The notes under the pieces were generated by a model. It saw only the letters and a list, made by a program, of their open reading frames with translations. It had not been told where the DNA came from and did not search any database. Shown one piece after another: positions 14,820 to 56,625 of a stretch of 64,000 nt of DNA. The position numbers and the translations under genes were made by a program. How positions within the stretch are numbered: the stretch's first letter is position 1; each line of letters starts with the position of its first letter. The DNA is from Acidobacteriota bacterium (lineage in GTDB: Bacteria > Acidobacteriota > Blastocatellia > UBA7656). The stretch lies in NCBI GenBank assembly GCA_016201275.1, contig JACQDB010000110.1, positions 1 to 64,000 of the forward strand, read 5' to 3'.

Positions 14820-15767
14820 TCAACTGCCGGAGGTTTTGTTTTTATCTAGCCAAGCCGTCAAATCTTTGACAGTGGTGAAGTCCAGCAAGGCGTCACTCAA
14901 GTTTTCCAGTTGGGCGACGGGTAATTTCTTTATGCGCCCTTGCAGACGAACCGATATAACGCCCAAGCGACGATTGAGCAAACGCAAAACTATTTTTAAC
15001 GCCTCTTGCTTAACGCCTTGTGTAACGCCTTGTTTAACACCTATATCAATGCCTTCACGCATCCAACTTGTGGTTAATTCCATAACTTTTCTTCTCCTTC
15101 GCGGCTCAATTTTAGCAGCCTCTCGTTTGAAAATCTCTGTCTCTGTTGCGTTCAATTCCAAGTATGAATCAACGAAGCCTGAAATCAAACGCATCTTTGC
15201 TTGATTCAATTTCAAGCTTGCCATCAAGCGCAAGCATTCCAATTTCACAAAGGGGCGCTCTGCGGACGCGATCTGCATACGCGCCATCAAGGCGCTGGCT
15301 ACAGGGTTCTTGTGCTTGACAAAATCGCGCCAGTTCAAGCGATTCAACTGGATTACGCGATAATGAAAGTCTAAAACTCTATGGTCGGGAAACTCTACCC
15401 GATACTTGTCCGGCTGCTGTTTCTTGGGGCGCTTGCCGTAGAAGACAACTATCGGATAGACCGGCAGACGAAACTGCTGATGGAAGTAGGCGAAGTAAAA
15501 AAAGACGCGCTGTTGAAACACCGCTTCGGGTTCGCCTTGATTCTCTACGTTGATGATGAAGAAAGAGTCGCGACCTAAAAACTTCGCCTTCACCACGATG
15601 TCTGCGGCGCGTTTTTCGCCAGTCACCAAATCCGTGAAGAACTCTTTATCGAGAAAGACCAGCGAATCTTCATCAAGGTAAGCTCGCACTTCTGGAAAGA
15701 ACAACTCAAGGAACTCGACGAAAAACGTCGTCAGCAATTCCTTGAATAGTTGGTCGTGGTCAAGCAT
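14820..15767 (-). CDS. Rpn/PDDEXK-type nuclease-transposase family protein with DUF4351 tail
   Basis: The N-terminus (DQLFKELLTTFFVEFLELFF, then DIVVKAKFLGRDSFFIINVE) is typical of the large family of Rpn-like proteins with a PD-(D/E)XK nuclease fold; the IINVENQGE stretch supplies the acidic motif. The C-terminal 50 residues (LRLLNRRLG through LENLSDALLDF) match DUF4351, preceded by GVKQGVTQGVKQE repeats that are common at this junction. E. coli Rpn proteins stimulate recA-independent recombination, while many relatives are of unknown role. The gene sits 33 bases after the molybdoenzyme gene and 11 before the thioesterase, an unusual place for such a gene. Confidence 0.85.
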   Translation of the reverse strand: MLDHDQLFKELLTTFFVEFLELFFPEVRAYLDEDSLVFLDKEFFTDLVTGEKRAADIVVKAKFLGRDSFFIINVENQGEPEAVFQQRVFFYFAYFHQQFRLPVYPIVVFYGKRPKKQQPDKYRVEFPDHRVLDFHYRVIQLNRLNWRDFVKHKNPVASALMARMQIASAERPFVKLECLRLMASLKLNQAKMRLISGFVDSYLELNATETEIFKREAAKIEPRRRRKVMELTTSWMREGIDIGVKQGVTQGVKQEALKIVLRLLNRRLGVISVRLQGRIKKLPVAQLENLSDALLDFTTVKDLTAWLDKNKTSGS

Positions 15768-15800: not shown

Positions 15801-17849
15801 TCAAAGCTTTTCGATTTGCACCAGATTATCGTAAAACGTCGCGCCCGCGCCGATGTCTGTGAGGGCTTGCGAAGAGGTTTGATTGACGTTGCGACGACCC
15901 GGACTCAACTTGTTCCACCAGATTGATAAGGCTACGGCAACCCCCGATTTCACGCGGTCAGAAAGACGCGCGGTGATTTGAAACTCGCCTCTGTCGTTAA
16001 AGACGCGCACTAACTCGCCGTCTTCGATGCCGCGCACTTTGGCATCCGCTTCGTTAATATCAAGGAAAGGTTTCTTCTCATCCTTCAAAAACGATGGCAG
16101 GTTGGCAAACGACGAATTCAAAAACGAGCGCGCCGGTGGACTCAACAACTGTATGGGGAAACGCGCCGCAAGCTCCGGCGCAGACTCTTTCGATTCACGC
16201 GGCGCGACATATTGCGGCAGCGGGTCTTGCCCCAGATTTGCCAGCGCCTCGGAATAGAATTCGCACTTGCCGGAAGGCGTTGTGAAACCTCCTTCGGCAA
16301 ACGGCGCGAACTCTTCAGCAATATTCAAACGCACCCAACCTTCTTCTTTCAAACGCTCAAGCGTGATGCCTGCAAGCGGCGCGTAGTCTGTAGAAATCGC
16401 TTGGCGAATAATATCTTCGTCGGTGTCTTTGAAACATTCGTCGTCAAAGCCCATGCGTTCGGCGAGTAGTTGAAAGACTTGCCAATTCGGTTTTGCTTCA
16501 CCGATTGGCGCAATCGCCGGTTCGTTGTACATCAAATAATAATGCCCGTAAGGCTTCACCAAGTCGCGGTGTTCAAGCTGCGTAGTCGCTGGCAACAAGA
16601 TGTCCGCGTAATCGGCGGTGTCGGTTTGAAAATGCTCGTGAACCACTGTGAATAAATCTTCGCGCAAAAATCCTTCAATGACTTTCGATTGGTCTGGCGC
16701 AACGGCTGCGGGGTTGGTGTTGTAAACGTAAATCGCTCGCACCGGCGGCACAGCTTGGGTAAGCGCGTCGCCTAGACAAGACATATTGATGGTGCGCGGA
16801 GTGCCGCGAATTAAATCTGGGCGTTCGACGGCTGCCAAATTCAAGTTAAACATTCCGCTAGTTGACAACAACACGCCGCCGCCTACATCTCGCCAAGAGC
16901 CAATCAACGCAGGCAAACAAGCGATGGCGCGTACAGCGTTGCCGCCACCGGCGTGACGTTGCAAACCGTAGTTGACGCGAATGGCTGCCGGTTTGGTGGT
17001 CGCGTATTCACGGGCGAAGTCAACGATTTCGTTTTCCGTGATGCCGCAAATTTCGGCAACCCGCGAGGGCGAAAATTCGGCTATGCGATTGCGTAATTGA
17101 TTAAACCCCAAGGTGTATTTTTCAAGGTAGTCTTGATCTTCCAAGCCTGCGCTCAAGATAACATTCATCACCCCGAAGGCGAACGCCGCGTCGGTGCCTG
17201 GGCGCAGTTGAATCAATTGATGAACGCGGTCTAAGGTTTCGTTTCGATAAGGGTCTATGCCTATGACTTTCGCGCCGTGGTCAATTGCCTCTTTAATTTC
17301 GGGCCACAGATGAATGTTTGAGGTGAGGGTGTTGGTTCCCCACAAGACGATCAATTTAGCGCGATGAAAATTTTGCGAGTCGGTTCCAATCGTTGCGCCT
17401 ACGGTATGACGCATGGCGTCGCCGCCTGCCGACGAACAGATGGTTCGCGCCAAGAGACTTGCGCCCAGACGATGAAAGAAACGTCTATCCATGCTTGCGC
17501 CATTGACGATGCCCATAGTCCCTGCGTAGCTGTAGGGCAGAATGGATTGGGGGTTGTCCGAGGCAATTTCGGTGAAGCGTTCAGCGATGGTCTGCAAGGC
17601 TTCATCCCAACTGATGCGGGTGAATTTGCCTTCGCCCTTTTTGCCCACGCGCTTCATAGGGTAGAGCAAGCGGTCAGGGCTGTAGGTGCGTTCGAGATAG
17701 CGATTGACTTTGGTGCAAAGAAAGCCTCGCGTTGGCGGATGATTGGGGTCGCCGGAAACTTTCGTAGCGCGTCCGTCTTCGACTTCTATCAACATAGCGC
17801 AGGTATCCGGGCAATCGTGTGGACAAGCTGCGTGAATGATTTGTGTCAT
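15801..17849 (-). CDS. Molybdopterin-dependent oxidoreductase (formate dehydrogenase/DMSO reductase superfamily)
   Basis: The 682-residue protein is a bis-MGD molybdenum or tungsten enzyme. At the N-terminus ACPHDCPDTCAML and GFLCTKV supply four Cys for a 4Fe-4S cluster. Cofactor-binding signatures follow: DRLLYPMKRVGKKGEGKF, SWDEALQTIAERF, KLIVLWGTNTLTSN and GAKVIGIDPYRNET. The C-terminal molydopterin-dinucleotide domain includes FNDRGEFQITARLSD and ALSIWWNKLSPG. No Tat signal is visible, so it is probably cytoplasmic. No electron-transfer subunit lies next to it, which leaves the substrate open. It heads a probable operon with the Rpn-like and thioesterase genes. Confidence 0.92.
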   Translation of the reverse strand: MTQIIHAACPHDCPDTCAMLIEVEDGRATKVSGDPNHPPTRGFLCTKVNRYLERTYSPDRLLYPMKRVGKKGEGKFTRISWDEALQTIAERFTEIASDNPQSILPYSYAGTMGIVNGASMDRRFFHRLGASLLARTICSSAGGDAMRHTVGATIGTDSQNFHRAKLIVLWGTNTLTSNIHLWPEIKEAIDHGAKVIGIDPYRNETLDRVHQLIQLRPGTDAAFAFGVMNVILSAGLEDQDYLEKYTLGFNQLRNRIAEFSPSRVAEICGITENEIVDFAREYATTKPAAIRVNYGLQRHAGGGNAVRAIACLPALIGSWRDVGGGVLLSTSGMFNLNLAAVERPDLIRGTPRTINMSCLGDALTQAVPPVRAIYVYNTNPAAVAPDQSKVIEGFLREDLFTVVHEHFQTDTADYADILLPATTQLEHRDLVKPYGHYYLMYNEPAIAPIGEAKPNWQVFQLLAERMGFDDECFKDTDEDIIRQAISTDYAPLAGITLERLKEEGWVRLNIAEEFAPFAEGGFTTPSGKCEFYSEALANLGQDPLPQYVAPRESKESAPELAARFPIQLLSPPARSFLNSSFANLPSFLKDEKKPFLDINEADAKVRGIEDGELVRVFNDRGEFQITARLSDRVKSGVAVALSIWWNKLSPGRRNVNQTSSQALTDIGAGATFYDNLVQIEKL

Positions 17850-18035: not shown

Positions 18036-18083
18036 CAGATAGAACGCGGATTGGGCGGATTAAGCGGATTAGGCGGATTTTTC
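18036..18083 (+). repeat. Left inverted-repeat arm of GxxExxY cassette
   Basis: The arm begins CAGATAGAACGCGGATTGGG and continues with 9-base words (GCGGATTAA, GCGGATTAG, GCGGATTTT). It is the reverse complement of 18481-18519 except for one extra 9-base word. The ribosome binding site of the enclosed gene follows immediately. Confidence 0.9.
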
Positions 18084-18100
18084 TTTAAAGGAGAATGGCT

Positions 18101-18520
18101 ATGCCGATGGAGTTAAAAGGTAGAGAGTTGACAGAGCAAATCATCAAGGCTTTTTACACGGTTTATAACAAACTCGGTCATGGTTTTCTTGAGAGAGTCT
18201 ATGAAAAATCTTTGATTATAGAGCTTCATAAAATGGGCTTGCAGGCTTTGCGTCAACAGCGAATCGAAGTCTATTACGACAGTGAAATGGTGGGTTACTA
18301 TTTTGCCGACATCATCGTGAACAATCAGGTCATCGTTGAAATAAAAGCGGCGGCGGCGCTGCATCCGGCTCACGAAGCCCAGCTACAAAATTATTTGAGA
18401 GGCACGGGCATTGAAATCGGTATGCTGTTTAACTTTGGCGAGAAGCCTCAATTCAGTCGCAAGTATTTTTCCAATCAGAAGAAAAATCCGCCTAATCCGC
18501 CCAATCCGCGTTCTATCTGA
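18101..18520 (+). CDS. GxxExxY family PDDEXK-fold protein
   Basis: The 139-residue protein carries the family signature in GHGFLERVYEKSL (Gly-x-x-Glu-x-x-Tyr), then FADIIVNN and VIVEIKAAAAL, which give the Asp ... Glu-x-Lys nuclease motif, and QLQNYLRGTGIEIGMLFNFG. The fold is that of PD-(D/E)XK nucleases; the cellular role of the family is unknown. The ATG at 18101 is chosen because TAAAGGAG lies 8 bases before it, while the ATG at 18095 would be too close. The last residues (NPPNPPNPRSI) and the stop codon are encoded by the right inverted-repeat arm, so gene and repeats form one unit. Confidence 0.9.
   Translation: MPMELKGRELTEQIIKAFYTVYNKLGHGFLERVYEKSLIIELHKMGLQALRQQRIEVYYDSEMVGYYFADIIVNNQVIVEIKAAAALHPAHEAQLQNYLRGTGIEIGMLFNFGEKPQFSRKYFSNQKKNPPNPPNPRSI
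18481..18519 (-). repeat. Right inverted-repeat arm of GxxExxY cassette
   Basis: Its reverse complement begins CAGATAGAACGCGGATTGGG and continues GCGGATTAGGCGGATTTTTC, matching the left arm at 18036-18083 minus one 9-base word. It encodes the C-terminus of the GxxExxY protein and contributes two bases of its TGA stop codon. No clear target duplication is visible outside the arms. Confidence 0.9.
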
Positions 18521-18570: not shown

Positions 18571-19176
18571 ATGAATTATTTAGCTCATCTCTACCTGGCA
18601 GAAGATAGCCCGCATTCGGTTATCGGCAATCTTCTAGGCGATTTCGTCAAAGGCTCTATCAGTGATAGCTACCCCAGCGAAATTCGCCAAGGCATAGAGC
18701 TGCACAGAAAGGTTGATCGCTTCACCGATGCTCACGTCGTGGTGCGCTCAAGCTTGAAACTCATCAGCCCTGCGCGACGCAGATTTGCCGGAGTTATCGT
18801 TGATATGTTTTACGACCATCTGTTGGCGAAAAATTGGGAGAGCTATTCGACAACGCCGCTGCGACTATTTTCGCAGAAGGTCTATGGCGTATTGACGGAA
18901 CATCACAACTTGTTGCCGCAGCGTTTGCAGCAGATGCTGCCCTACATTATCAAAGAAGACTGGCTGACTTCTTACAGAGAAATCAACACCATTGACCAAG
19001 CTCTAAATCGCATATCAAATCGCCTAGCCAAAAGATTCCAACGGGAGAATGCTTTGTTGAATGCCGCTAAAGAATTGGAAGCCAATTATCAACAACTCGA
19101 AAGCCATTTTCATAGCTTCTTCCCTGACTTGATTGACTACGTGAAAAGGCAAGGCGAGATAGTTGGCACAGACTAA
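18571..19176 (+). CDS. Acyl carrier protein phosphodiesterase AcpH-like protein
   Basis: The 201-residue protein matches the AcpH family (DUF479): NYLAHLYLAEDSPHSVIGNL, GDFVKGS, GIELHRKVDRFTDAH, DMFYDHLLAKNWESY. The His/Asp-rich motifs belong to an HD-like metal site. AcpH removes 4-phosphopantetheine from holo-ACP in E. coli; many homologues are annotated only by similarity. It ends 24 bases before the argininosuccinate lyase gene and is likely cotranscribed with it, though no functional link is obvious. Confidence 0.88.
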   Translation: MNYLAHLYLAEDSPHSVIGNLLGDFVKGSISDSYPSEIRQGIELHRKVDRFTDAHVVVRSSLKLISPARRRFAGVIVDMFYDHLLAKNWESYSTTPLRLFSQKVYGVLTEHHNLLPQRLQQMLPYIIKEDWLTSYREINTIDQALNRISNRLAKRFQRENALLNAAKELEANYQQLESHFHSFFPDLIDYVKRQGEIVGTD

Positions 19177-20601: not shown

Positions 20602-20632
20602 GCGAATGAGGGTCGAGCGCGGGAACCATTCC

Positions 20633-20759
20633 TAGAGCGGTTTGGGTTTGAGATTACGGAAACCTCAAACCCGTTGAGCGGCGGTCGAAGACCTTCGCAC
20701 GGTCGAAGACCGCTGCTCAACGATAGCGCGTTCCGTACACACATATGCAAACCGCTCTA
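20633..20759 (-). mobile_element. Family B MITE-like element, copy 2
   Basis: This 127 bp element with TA at both edges and CTCTA/TAGAG ends is the reverse complement of 500-626 with scattered differences. It sits 31 bases after the argH stop codon, between convergent genes. It contains no ORF of its own. Confidence 0.75.
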
Positions 20760-20795
20760 GCAGAATCTGTTTCTTGAAAGAGCAGAAGCGAGGTT

Positions 20796-37377: not shown

Positions 37378-37382
37378 ATGGC

Positions 37383-37504
37383 AGTCCTTGGTCCTTAGTC
37401 CTTAGTCCTTAGCTGGCTTGTGCGAACTCCTTGAAACTGGCTCCTGTAGCCGGTTTCAAGACAGACAAGAAAAGCTAAGGACTAAGGACTAAGGACCAAG
37501 GACT
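37383..37504. repeat. Hairpin built of CCTTAGT words
   Basis: The arms (37383-37414 and 37473-37504) are perfect 32-base complements made of repeated AGTCCTTAGTCCTTAG words. The middle holds a second stem (CTTGAAACTGGCTCC / GTAGCCGGTTTCAAG). It fills the gap between two plus-strand genes and stops 13 bases before the next start codon. A related, less perfect one lies at 55231-55328. Confidence 0.88.
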
Positions 37505-37516
37505 TCCCGCAAGGAC

Positions 37517-55224: not shown

Positions 55225-55230
55225 TCAAAT

Positions 55231-56625
<1,395 letters not shown>

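Follow-up and report, generated by a model that had tools for sequence, protein, structure and literature searches.

The locus described here raises the question of why a single small gene, coding for a protein of the GxxExxY family, is enclosed by two inverted arrays of a short repeated word, one of which runs into the coding end of the gene itself. The locus lies in a stretch of 64,000 nucleotides from an Acidobacteriota genome that was analysed as a whole and is referred to below as the window, and its features are compiled in Table 1. The left arm is composed of an outer cap CAGATAGAAC, four GCGGATT words (one of them extra) and then TTTTTCTT. The match between the arms is wider than the words, as the outer cap and the inner tail also pair, and the sole difference from arm to arm is the one extra 9-nt word GCGGATTAA at 18055–18063 of the left arm. 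An earlier sequence-only reading of this DNA had given the arms as 48 and 39 nt; these lengths have been revised to 50 and 41 nt, and the exact inversion save for one 9-nt word was retained. The right arm codes for the last 13 residues of the protein (KKNPPNPPNPRSI), not eleven as first counted, together with two bases of the TGA stop, and the ribosome-binding site that had been placed close behind the left arm does directly adjoin it.

Table 1. Coordinates of the element and of its neighbours in the window.
Feature	Position	Strand	Description
Left arm	18036..18085	+	50 nt; CAGATAGAAC-GCGGATTGG-GCGGATTAA-GCGGATTAG-GCGGATTTTTCTT
Right arm	18479..18519	+	41 nt; exact reverse complement of left arm minus GCGGATTAA
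Ribosome-binding site AAAGGAG	18086..18093	+	directly inside left arm; by eye
GxxExxY / PDDEXK_3 nuclease ORF (predicted)	18095..18520	+	141 aa; start may be 18101
Left neighbour, molybdopterin oxidoreductase	15801..17849	-	outside element; flank for empty-site comparison
Right neighbour, acyl carrier protein phosphodiesterase	18571..19176	+	outside element

The arms stand well clear of chance. The word pattern has 5 matches in the window against 0.38 expected, a number reached by none of 100 shuffles, and the arm-to-arm alignment score is 68 at the element compared with a best of 36 among 310 equally spaced places in the window. The exact GCGGATTAA-type words are locus-specific. Across the 6.84-Mb genome the tandem word has just one further occurrence besides the window element, a gene-less hairpin on contig C51. 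Two further features were observed in the window. Near the element, at 14820–15767 on the minus strand, lies an ORF that ends in a DUF4351 domain (PF14261), and another dispersed imperfect hairpin of the host genome (TAGAGCGGTTT...TTCCGTACACNCATATGCAAACCGCTCTA) occurs at 493–633 and 20632–20760, as well as at 2032–2158 of locus L003.

The architecture is not confined to the window. The host genome (G000, 6.84 Mb) contains seven PDDEXK_3 matches, six of which, the window copy among them, lie between inverted word arrays with different words at each. The array words are GCGGATG.. at L001, ACCACGAAGAACACGAAG.. at L002 and ACCACAGATGAACACAGATG.. at L004, ACCGCAGAGGACGC.. words enclose a gene with two stops at L006 and CTTGGCGG.. 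words enclose a gene fragment at L007; the seventh match, at L003, has no recognisable arms. For a wider sample, arms were scored by aligning the upstream flank locally to the reverse complement of the downstream one, at a threshold score of at least 28, around 106 distinct GxxExxY genes. These were taken from the host class, in which the gene is present in 111 of the 147 genomes sampled, and from a scan of species genomes covering Bacteroidota, Ignavibacteria, Chloroflexi, Desulfobacterota, Acidobacteriota, CPR Magasanikbacteria and an archaeon. Arms were found at 83% of the 106 genes, whereas among 336 neighbour ORFs from these contigs 1.5% reached the threshold (p = 2.6e-47), and controls in which the flanks of mismatched loci were paired agree with the neighbour-ORF control. 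Over 85 elements the mean arm is 44 nt long at 80% identity, and the distance between the outer arm ends has a median of 506 bp; in 42% the right arm reaches into the stop codon or the end of the coding sequence. The words are spaced by 9–11 nt overall, or by 8 nt in some G-type arms (see below), and have in common the degenerate core C-R-C-N-R-A-K at a spacing of 8–11 nt. The element recurs at unrelated loci across many phyla, with CPR bacteria and an archaeon among its hosts; L044 and L062, both from Flavobacterium, represent the same locus. The element in the window exemplifies a widespread architecture of about 0.45–0.6 kb in which two inverted word arrays enclose a single gene. The sequence-only reading had proposed a search for inverted words in the flanks of GxxExxY homologues, and these are present at many loci rather than being limited to one vertically inherited locus. 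No phage record matched the element, and only four plasmid records did so, from collections that are biased to other hosts.

PF13366 is the sole Pfam match of the window ORF. The protein matches this profile at 132.7 bits (cut-off 22) and TIGR04256 at 129.9 bits (cut-off 35), making it a member of the GxxExxY family, and carries the motifs E33, D72, E82xK84 and Q96xxxY100. E33, D72, Q96 and Y100 are present in 61 of 61 proteins, and E82 and K84 in 60 of the 61. An AlphaFold model of the window protein (pLDDT 87, built from 61 sequences) was compared with solved folds by Foldseek, the nearest being Cas4 SSO0001, the lambda-exonuclease-type LHK-Exo and the Holliday-junction resolvase Hjc, with Cas4 4ic1 as the best match (E 1.2e-4, probability 1.00) and with modest TM-scores of 0.4–0.54. 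A search by sequence for a homologue of solved structure returned none (best E 0.32). The window protein thus combines the E...D...ExK...QxxxY motifs of RecB/Cas4-like PD-(D/E)XK nucleases with a matching predicted fold, and the prediction for GxxExxY is a minimal nuclease of the Cas4/RecB-like (QxxxY) kind within this superfamily. QxxxY is the signature of RecB-type nucleases, which act on DNA ends and single strands, and by analogy with these enzymes GxxExxY may do the same. A CRISPR Cas4 identity was considered and rejected, since the similarity to Cas4 is weak (E 0.006) and the neighbours are not cas genes. Judged by the Pfam matches of its ORF, the window element contains no DDE, HUH or site-specific recombinase gene.

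The words are coupled to the clade of the enclosed protein. Arm sequence varies by locus, and the words fall into T-words (GAT, GAC, AAT) and G-words (GAG, AAG). On a tree of 85 proteins, in which few alignment columns leave the finer branches weak, this word class needs exactly one change, at a branch with 99% SH-aLRT. The match crosses hosts: on a single Melioribacteraceae contig (L030), one copy has GAT words and another AAG words, and the two proteins fall into the corresponding clades. In a prospective check the clade was called from the protein alone at 47 further loci, 39 of them with readable arms, and it predicted the word class at 36 of the 39 (34 of 34 where the score margin exceeded 20 bits). 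The three misfits have margins below 10 bits, with near-equal scores against both clade profiles, and a further word type, CCGCAGATTACACAGATT; the loci with these words (L196, L327 and L337) probably represent a third GxxExxY clade. Both arms of one locus agree in their locus-specific words. Protein identity and word similarity are correlated overall (rho 0.43, p 0.001) and also in the G clade; within the T clade this finer relation does not reach significance (p 0.11).

Occupied and empty sites, whose comparison had also been proposed from the window sequence, were found both at the window locus and elsewhere. The window locus is empty in a sister-genus genome (G001) that is too diverged for base-exact junctions. 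This absence from the syntenic locus, the recurrence at unrelated loci and the fact that the words follow protein clade over host all uphold the claim that gene and arms form one unit. A fuller series of states was obtained by searching the sufD–sufS junction in 41 species. Six species of genus g11 have a full element there, with dN values of 0.12–0.24, saturated synonymous sites and words that are kept, and this low dN over saturated dS suggests long vertical retention in the suf operon. At the same junction, L235 (genome G077), with a flank 92% identical to that of an occupied relative, retains both arms but has lost all of the gene beyond its first ~45 nt, L245 has another internal deletion, L252 is a gene-less hairpin, L234, L237 and L241 are solo-arm scars, and L236 and L244 are clean junctions of 10–11 nt. 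It follows from this series that gene-less hairpins can arise via internal deletion and that the element is dispensable. The g11 junction is an insertion hot spot that holds unrelated small genes in different species (L248, L251, L253–L261). A possible third word class (TATNNGTCC: CATATATGACCTATGTGTCTTATAAGTCC) was seen at this junction in L238 and L239 as an apparent remnant. One orthologous site elsewhere has a full element in L112 and a hairpin in L172.

Inspection by eye revealed no target-site duplication around the window copy or around gene-less copies, and the comparison genomes are too diverged to give base-exact junctions; G110 and G111, considered as a close pair, proved to be only 67–78% identical. 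Within a genome, the copies that carry the gene mostly share no more than 35–65% identity, so recent self-transposition is rare. Recent movement is suggested only by the copies in G020, where two dispersed elements have 93% protein and 84% DNA identity. Their homology stops at the right arm and runs ~100 bp past the left arm, and because of this continuation the pair was not accepted as direct evidence of transposition.

Gene-less derivatives are present in high copy. In the 147 genomes the T-word pattern has 117 matches against 0 for the reversed pattern, and the G-word pattern 2408 against 8, counts that include the arms of gene-bearing elements. At least three G-word arrays are found in 78 of the 111 gene-bearing genomes as against 4 of the 36 that lack GxxExxY (Fisher p 2.5e-10), and T-word arrays are likewise concentrated in GxxExxY-bearing genomes (p 0.001). 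Many arrays form +/− pairs 60–130 nt apart, and in some, as at L155, a 109-nt unit is repeated in tandem. Genome G122 contains about 30 dispersed gene-less copies, and since their loop sequence is homologous they were copied and not made independently; in this genome the T-word hairpin (e.g. L206, L263–L292) forms the centre of a larger palindromic repeat of ~240 bp, which has separate outer ends, GGCCAATGGCCTTAAGTTAAG. In genus g37, G-word arrays number 579 (G120), 47 (G094) and 14 (G080), and GxxExxY was not detected in these three genomes even at E<=10, so that these cases call for another mobiliser or for loss of the gene.

A sister class of elements has the same gene layout around S23/IVP (PF05635), a four-helix-bundle protein whose genes are present in 123 of the 147 host-class genomes. 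Enclosure at a score of at least 28 was found for 73% of these genes in the host class (controls 7%) and for 79% in other phyla (controls 3%). The words here are strictly 7-nt, with an autocorrelation of 0.61–0.68 at 7 nt, and do not correlate with protein similarity (rho 0.07, p 0.12). At another orthologous intergenic spot, different species have GxxExxY elements (L104, L118) or an IVP element (L126). Inverted arms around an S23 ORF are known from the 23S rRNA intervening sequences of Coxiella and other bacteria, which are suspected mobile elements (PMC4990558), and the S23/IVP elements outside rRNA may be the counterparts of these. Copy numbers of S23/IVP can be very high, as in G157, G170 and G176, with 24 in a 2.9-Mb genome and 11–12 in Magasanikbacteria genomes of 1.1–1.2 Mb. 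The window itself contains two gene-less hairpins of 7-nt words (AGTCCTT / TCCTTAG) of the S23/IVP type, at 37380–37507 and 55228–55331.

Because arms enclose the great majority of the genes examined, words follow the protein family and gene-less arrays are scattered, the GxxExxY elements point to an unrecognised class of tiny mobile element. We favour, as the probable explanation, a selfish or mobile element, similar to REPIN/RAYT or to rRNA intervening sequences, whose lone nuclease recognises its own word arrays and moves the unit and the gene-less hairpins via host repair. Points that weigh against it are that neither target-site duplications nor base-exact empty sites were found, that recent self-transposition is rare and retention in the suf operon long, that g37 genomes have arrays and no GxxExxY, that words and proteins are not significantly correlated inside the T clade, that the G020 homology continues past the left arm, and that the TM-scores are modest. 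The hairpins might instead be ordinary MITE- or REP-like repeats moved by other machinery, with GxxExxY, like S23/IVP, a mere passenger between the arms. The array-rich g37 genomes without GxxExxY would fit such a passenger, as would S23/IVP genes in arms of like layout, the alternation of element types between L104 or L118 and L126, and the nesting of the G122 hairpin in a larger palindromic repeat. A passive passenger, however, leaves unexplained why word class is set by protein clade; the retention of catalytic motifs in practically all members and a low dN over saturated dS also speak against it, as does the lack of a second arm-linked gene in the loci examined. We consider this explanation unlikely.

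The arms could also be operator or processing sites of a vertically inherited resident gene for repair or defence, with the nuclease regulating itself or an mRNA stem controlling expression or stability. Their closeness to the ORF, near the ATG and often over its coding end, and the fact that six species have kept the element in their suf operon are consistent with such a role, but thousands of gene-less arrays lie elsewhere and the element is gone or decayed at the sufD–sufS site in many sister species. The RNA version also bears on the sequence-only reading, which had taken the locus for a compact mobile or self-maintaining cassette with a nuclease acting on, or guided by, the repeated words or their RNA hairpin. 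Arm mismatches compatible with G-U pairing show no excess on the coding strand (103 vs 121, p = 0.26), and the element has no match in Rfam; the lack of strand bias in these wobble-type mismatches leaves RNA pairing unsupported, so that the cassette with its arms stands and the RNA hairpin or RNA guide was dropped. Resident operator or processing sites are accordingly quite improbable. A largely mutational origin with little function, in which slippage makes the words and template switching corrects the quasi-palindromes, would accommodate the agreement of the two arms of a locus and the S23/IVP words that do not follow protein similarity, but is very improbable given that neighbour genes do not gain such arms, that conservation of the degenerate word extends over phyla and follows the protein clade, and that words persist where flanking synonymous sites are saturated.

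Returning to the mobile element, the nuclease likely acts on its own words. It would bind them, perhaps as several copies side by side along the phased repeats, and would cut or nick either the element ends or a hairpin or cruciform formed by the arms, the substrate probably being single-stranded DNA at replication. Host repair would then move or copy the unit, and gene-less hairpins would be moved in trans by the nuclease, much as has been proposed for REPINs and RAYT (PMC3116915). It is possible, and proposed only tentatively, that this amounts to a new mode of DNA mobility, with ends made of phased word arrays, a lone Cas4/RecB-like nuclease and a 7-nt sister class around S23/IVP, spread over many phyla. 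GxxExxY and S23/IVP (in 111 and 123 of the 147 genomes) are small, very common genes with no established role. Through their link to inverted word arrays, both genes and numerous intergenic hairpin repeats gain a single explanation, which perhaps also extends to the origin of rRNA intervening sequences. Should the protein bind and cut its own array, a new route of mobility would be at hand in which a small nuclease family has readable, clade-specific DNA words; should both word classes be mobile across many phyla, thousands of so far unexplained short hairpin repeats would gain a source.

A link of GxxExxY or PF13366 to such repeats was not found in the open-access literature searched, where the family is seldom mentioned, and the closest known systems differ in defined ways. 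The GxxExxY element resembles MITEs and insertion sequences in its inverted ends, internal-deletion derivatives and high-copy non-autonomous forms, and is unlike them in having tandem word arrays as ends and no DDE, HUH or recombinase gene. The TAACTGA 7-nt tandem repeats of Beggiatoaceae and cyanobacteria are intergenic and are described as direct repeats (PMC4679880); the S23/IVP-type words are likewise 7-nt, intergenic and patchy over phyla, and differ in their inverted enclosure of S23/IVP genes, of which the passages searched in that paper make no mention. The 23S rRNA intervening sequences have a single small S23/IVP ORF, arms of 28 bp in Coxiella, an overall length of ~430 nt and a sporadic distribution, and the mechanism of their suspected mobility is not established (PMC4990558). 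The GxxExxY element shares with them the inverted arms around one small ORF. Its window copy, in contrast, lies between protein genes (molybdopterin oxidoreductase and ACP phosphodiesterase) and encodes GxxExxY instead of S23, and its arms are word arrays, a layout shared by the IVP genes outside rRNA with their 7-nt words. REPIN-RAYT systems combine a repeat beside the gene with gene-less inverted doublets in many copies, solo remnants, tandem clusters, mostly divergent gene copies within a genome and a repeat class that follows the protein (PMC3116915, PMC2817692). All of these have their equivalents here, in repeats that lie next to the gene and also occur elsewhere as inverted doublets without it, in solo remnants and tandem clusters, and in mostly divergent gene copies with a protein-linked repeat class. 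RAYT, however, is an HUH Y1 transposase and GxxExxY a predicted Cas4/RecB-like PD-(D/E)XK nuclease; a REPIN is one ~20-nt tagged palindrome whereas the GxxExxY ends are arrays of 8–11-nt words; and here the inverted pair encloses the gene, with several different elements per genome. Having no HUH transposase and not lying in rRNA, the GxxExxY element is a member of neither REPIN-RAYT nor the intervening sequences, although it would work like them.
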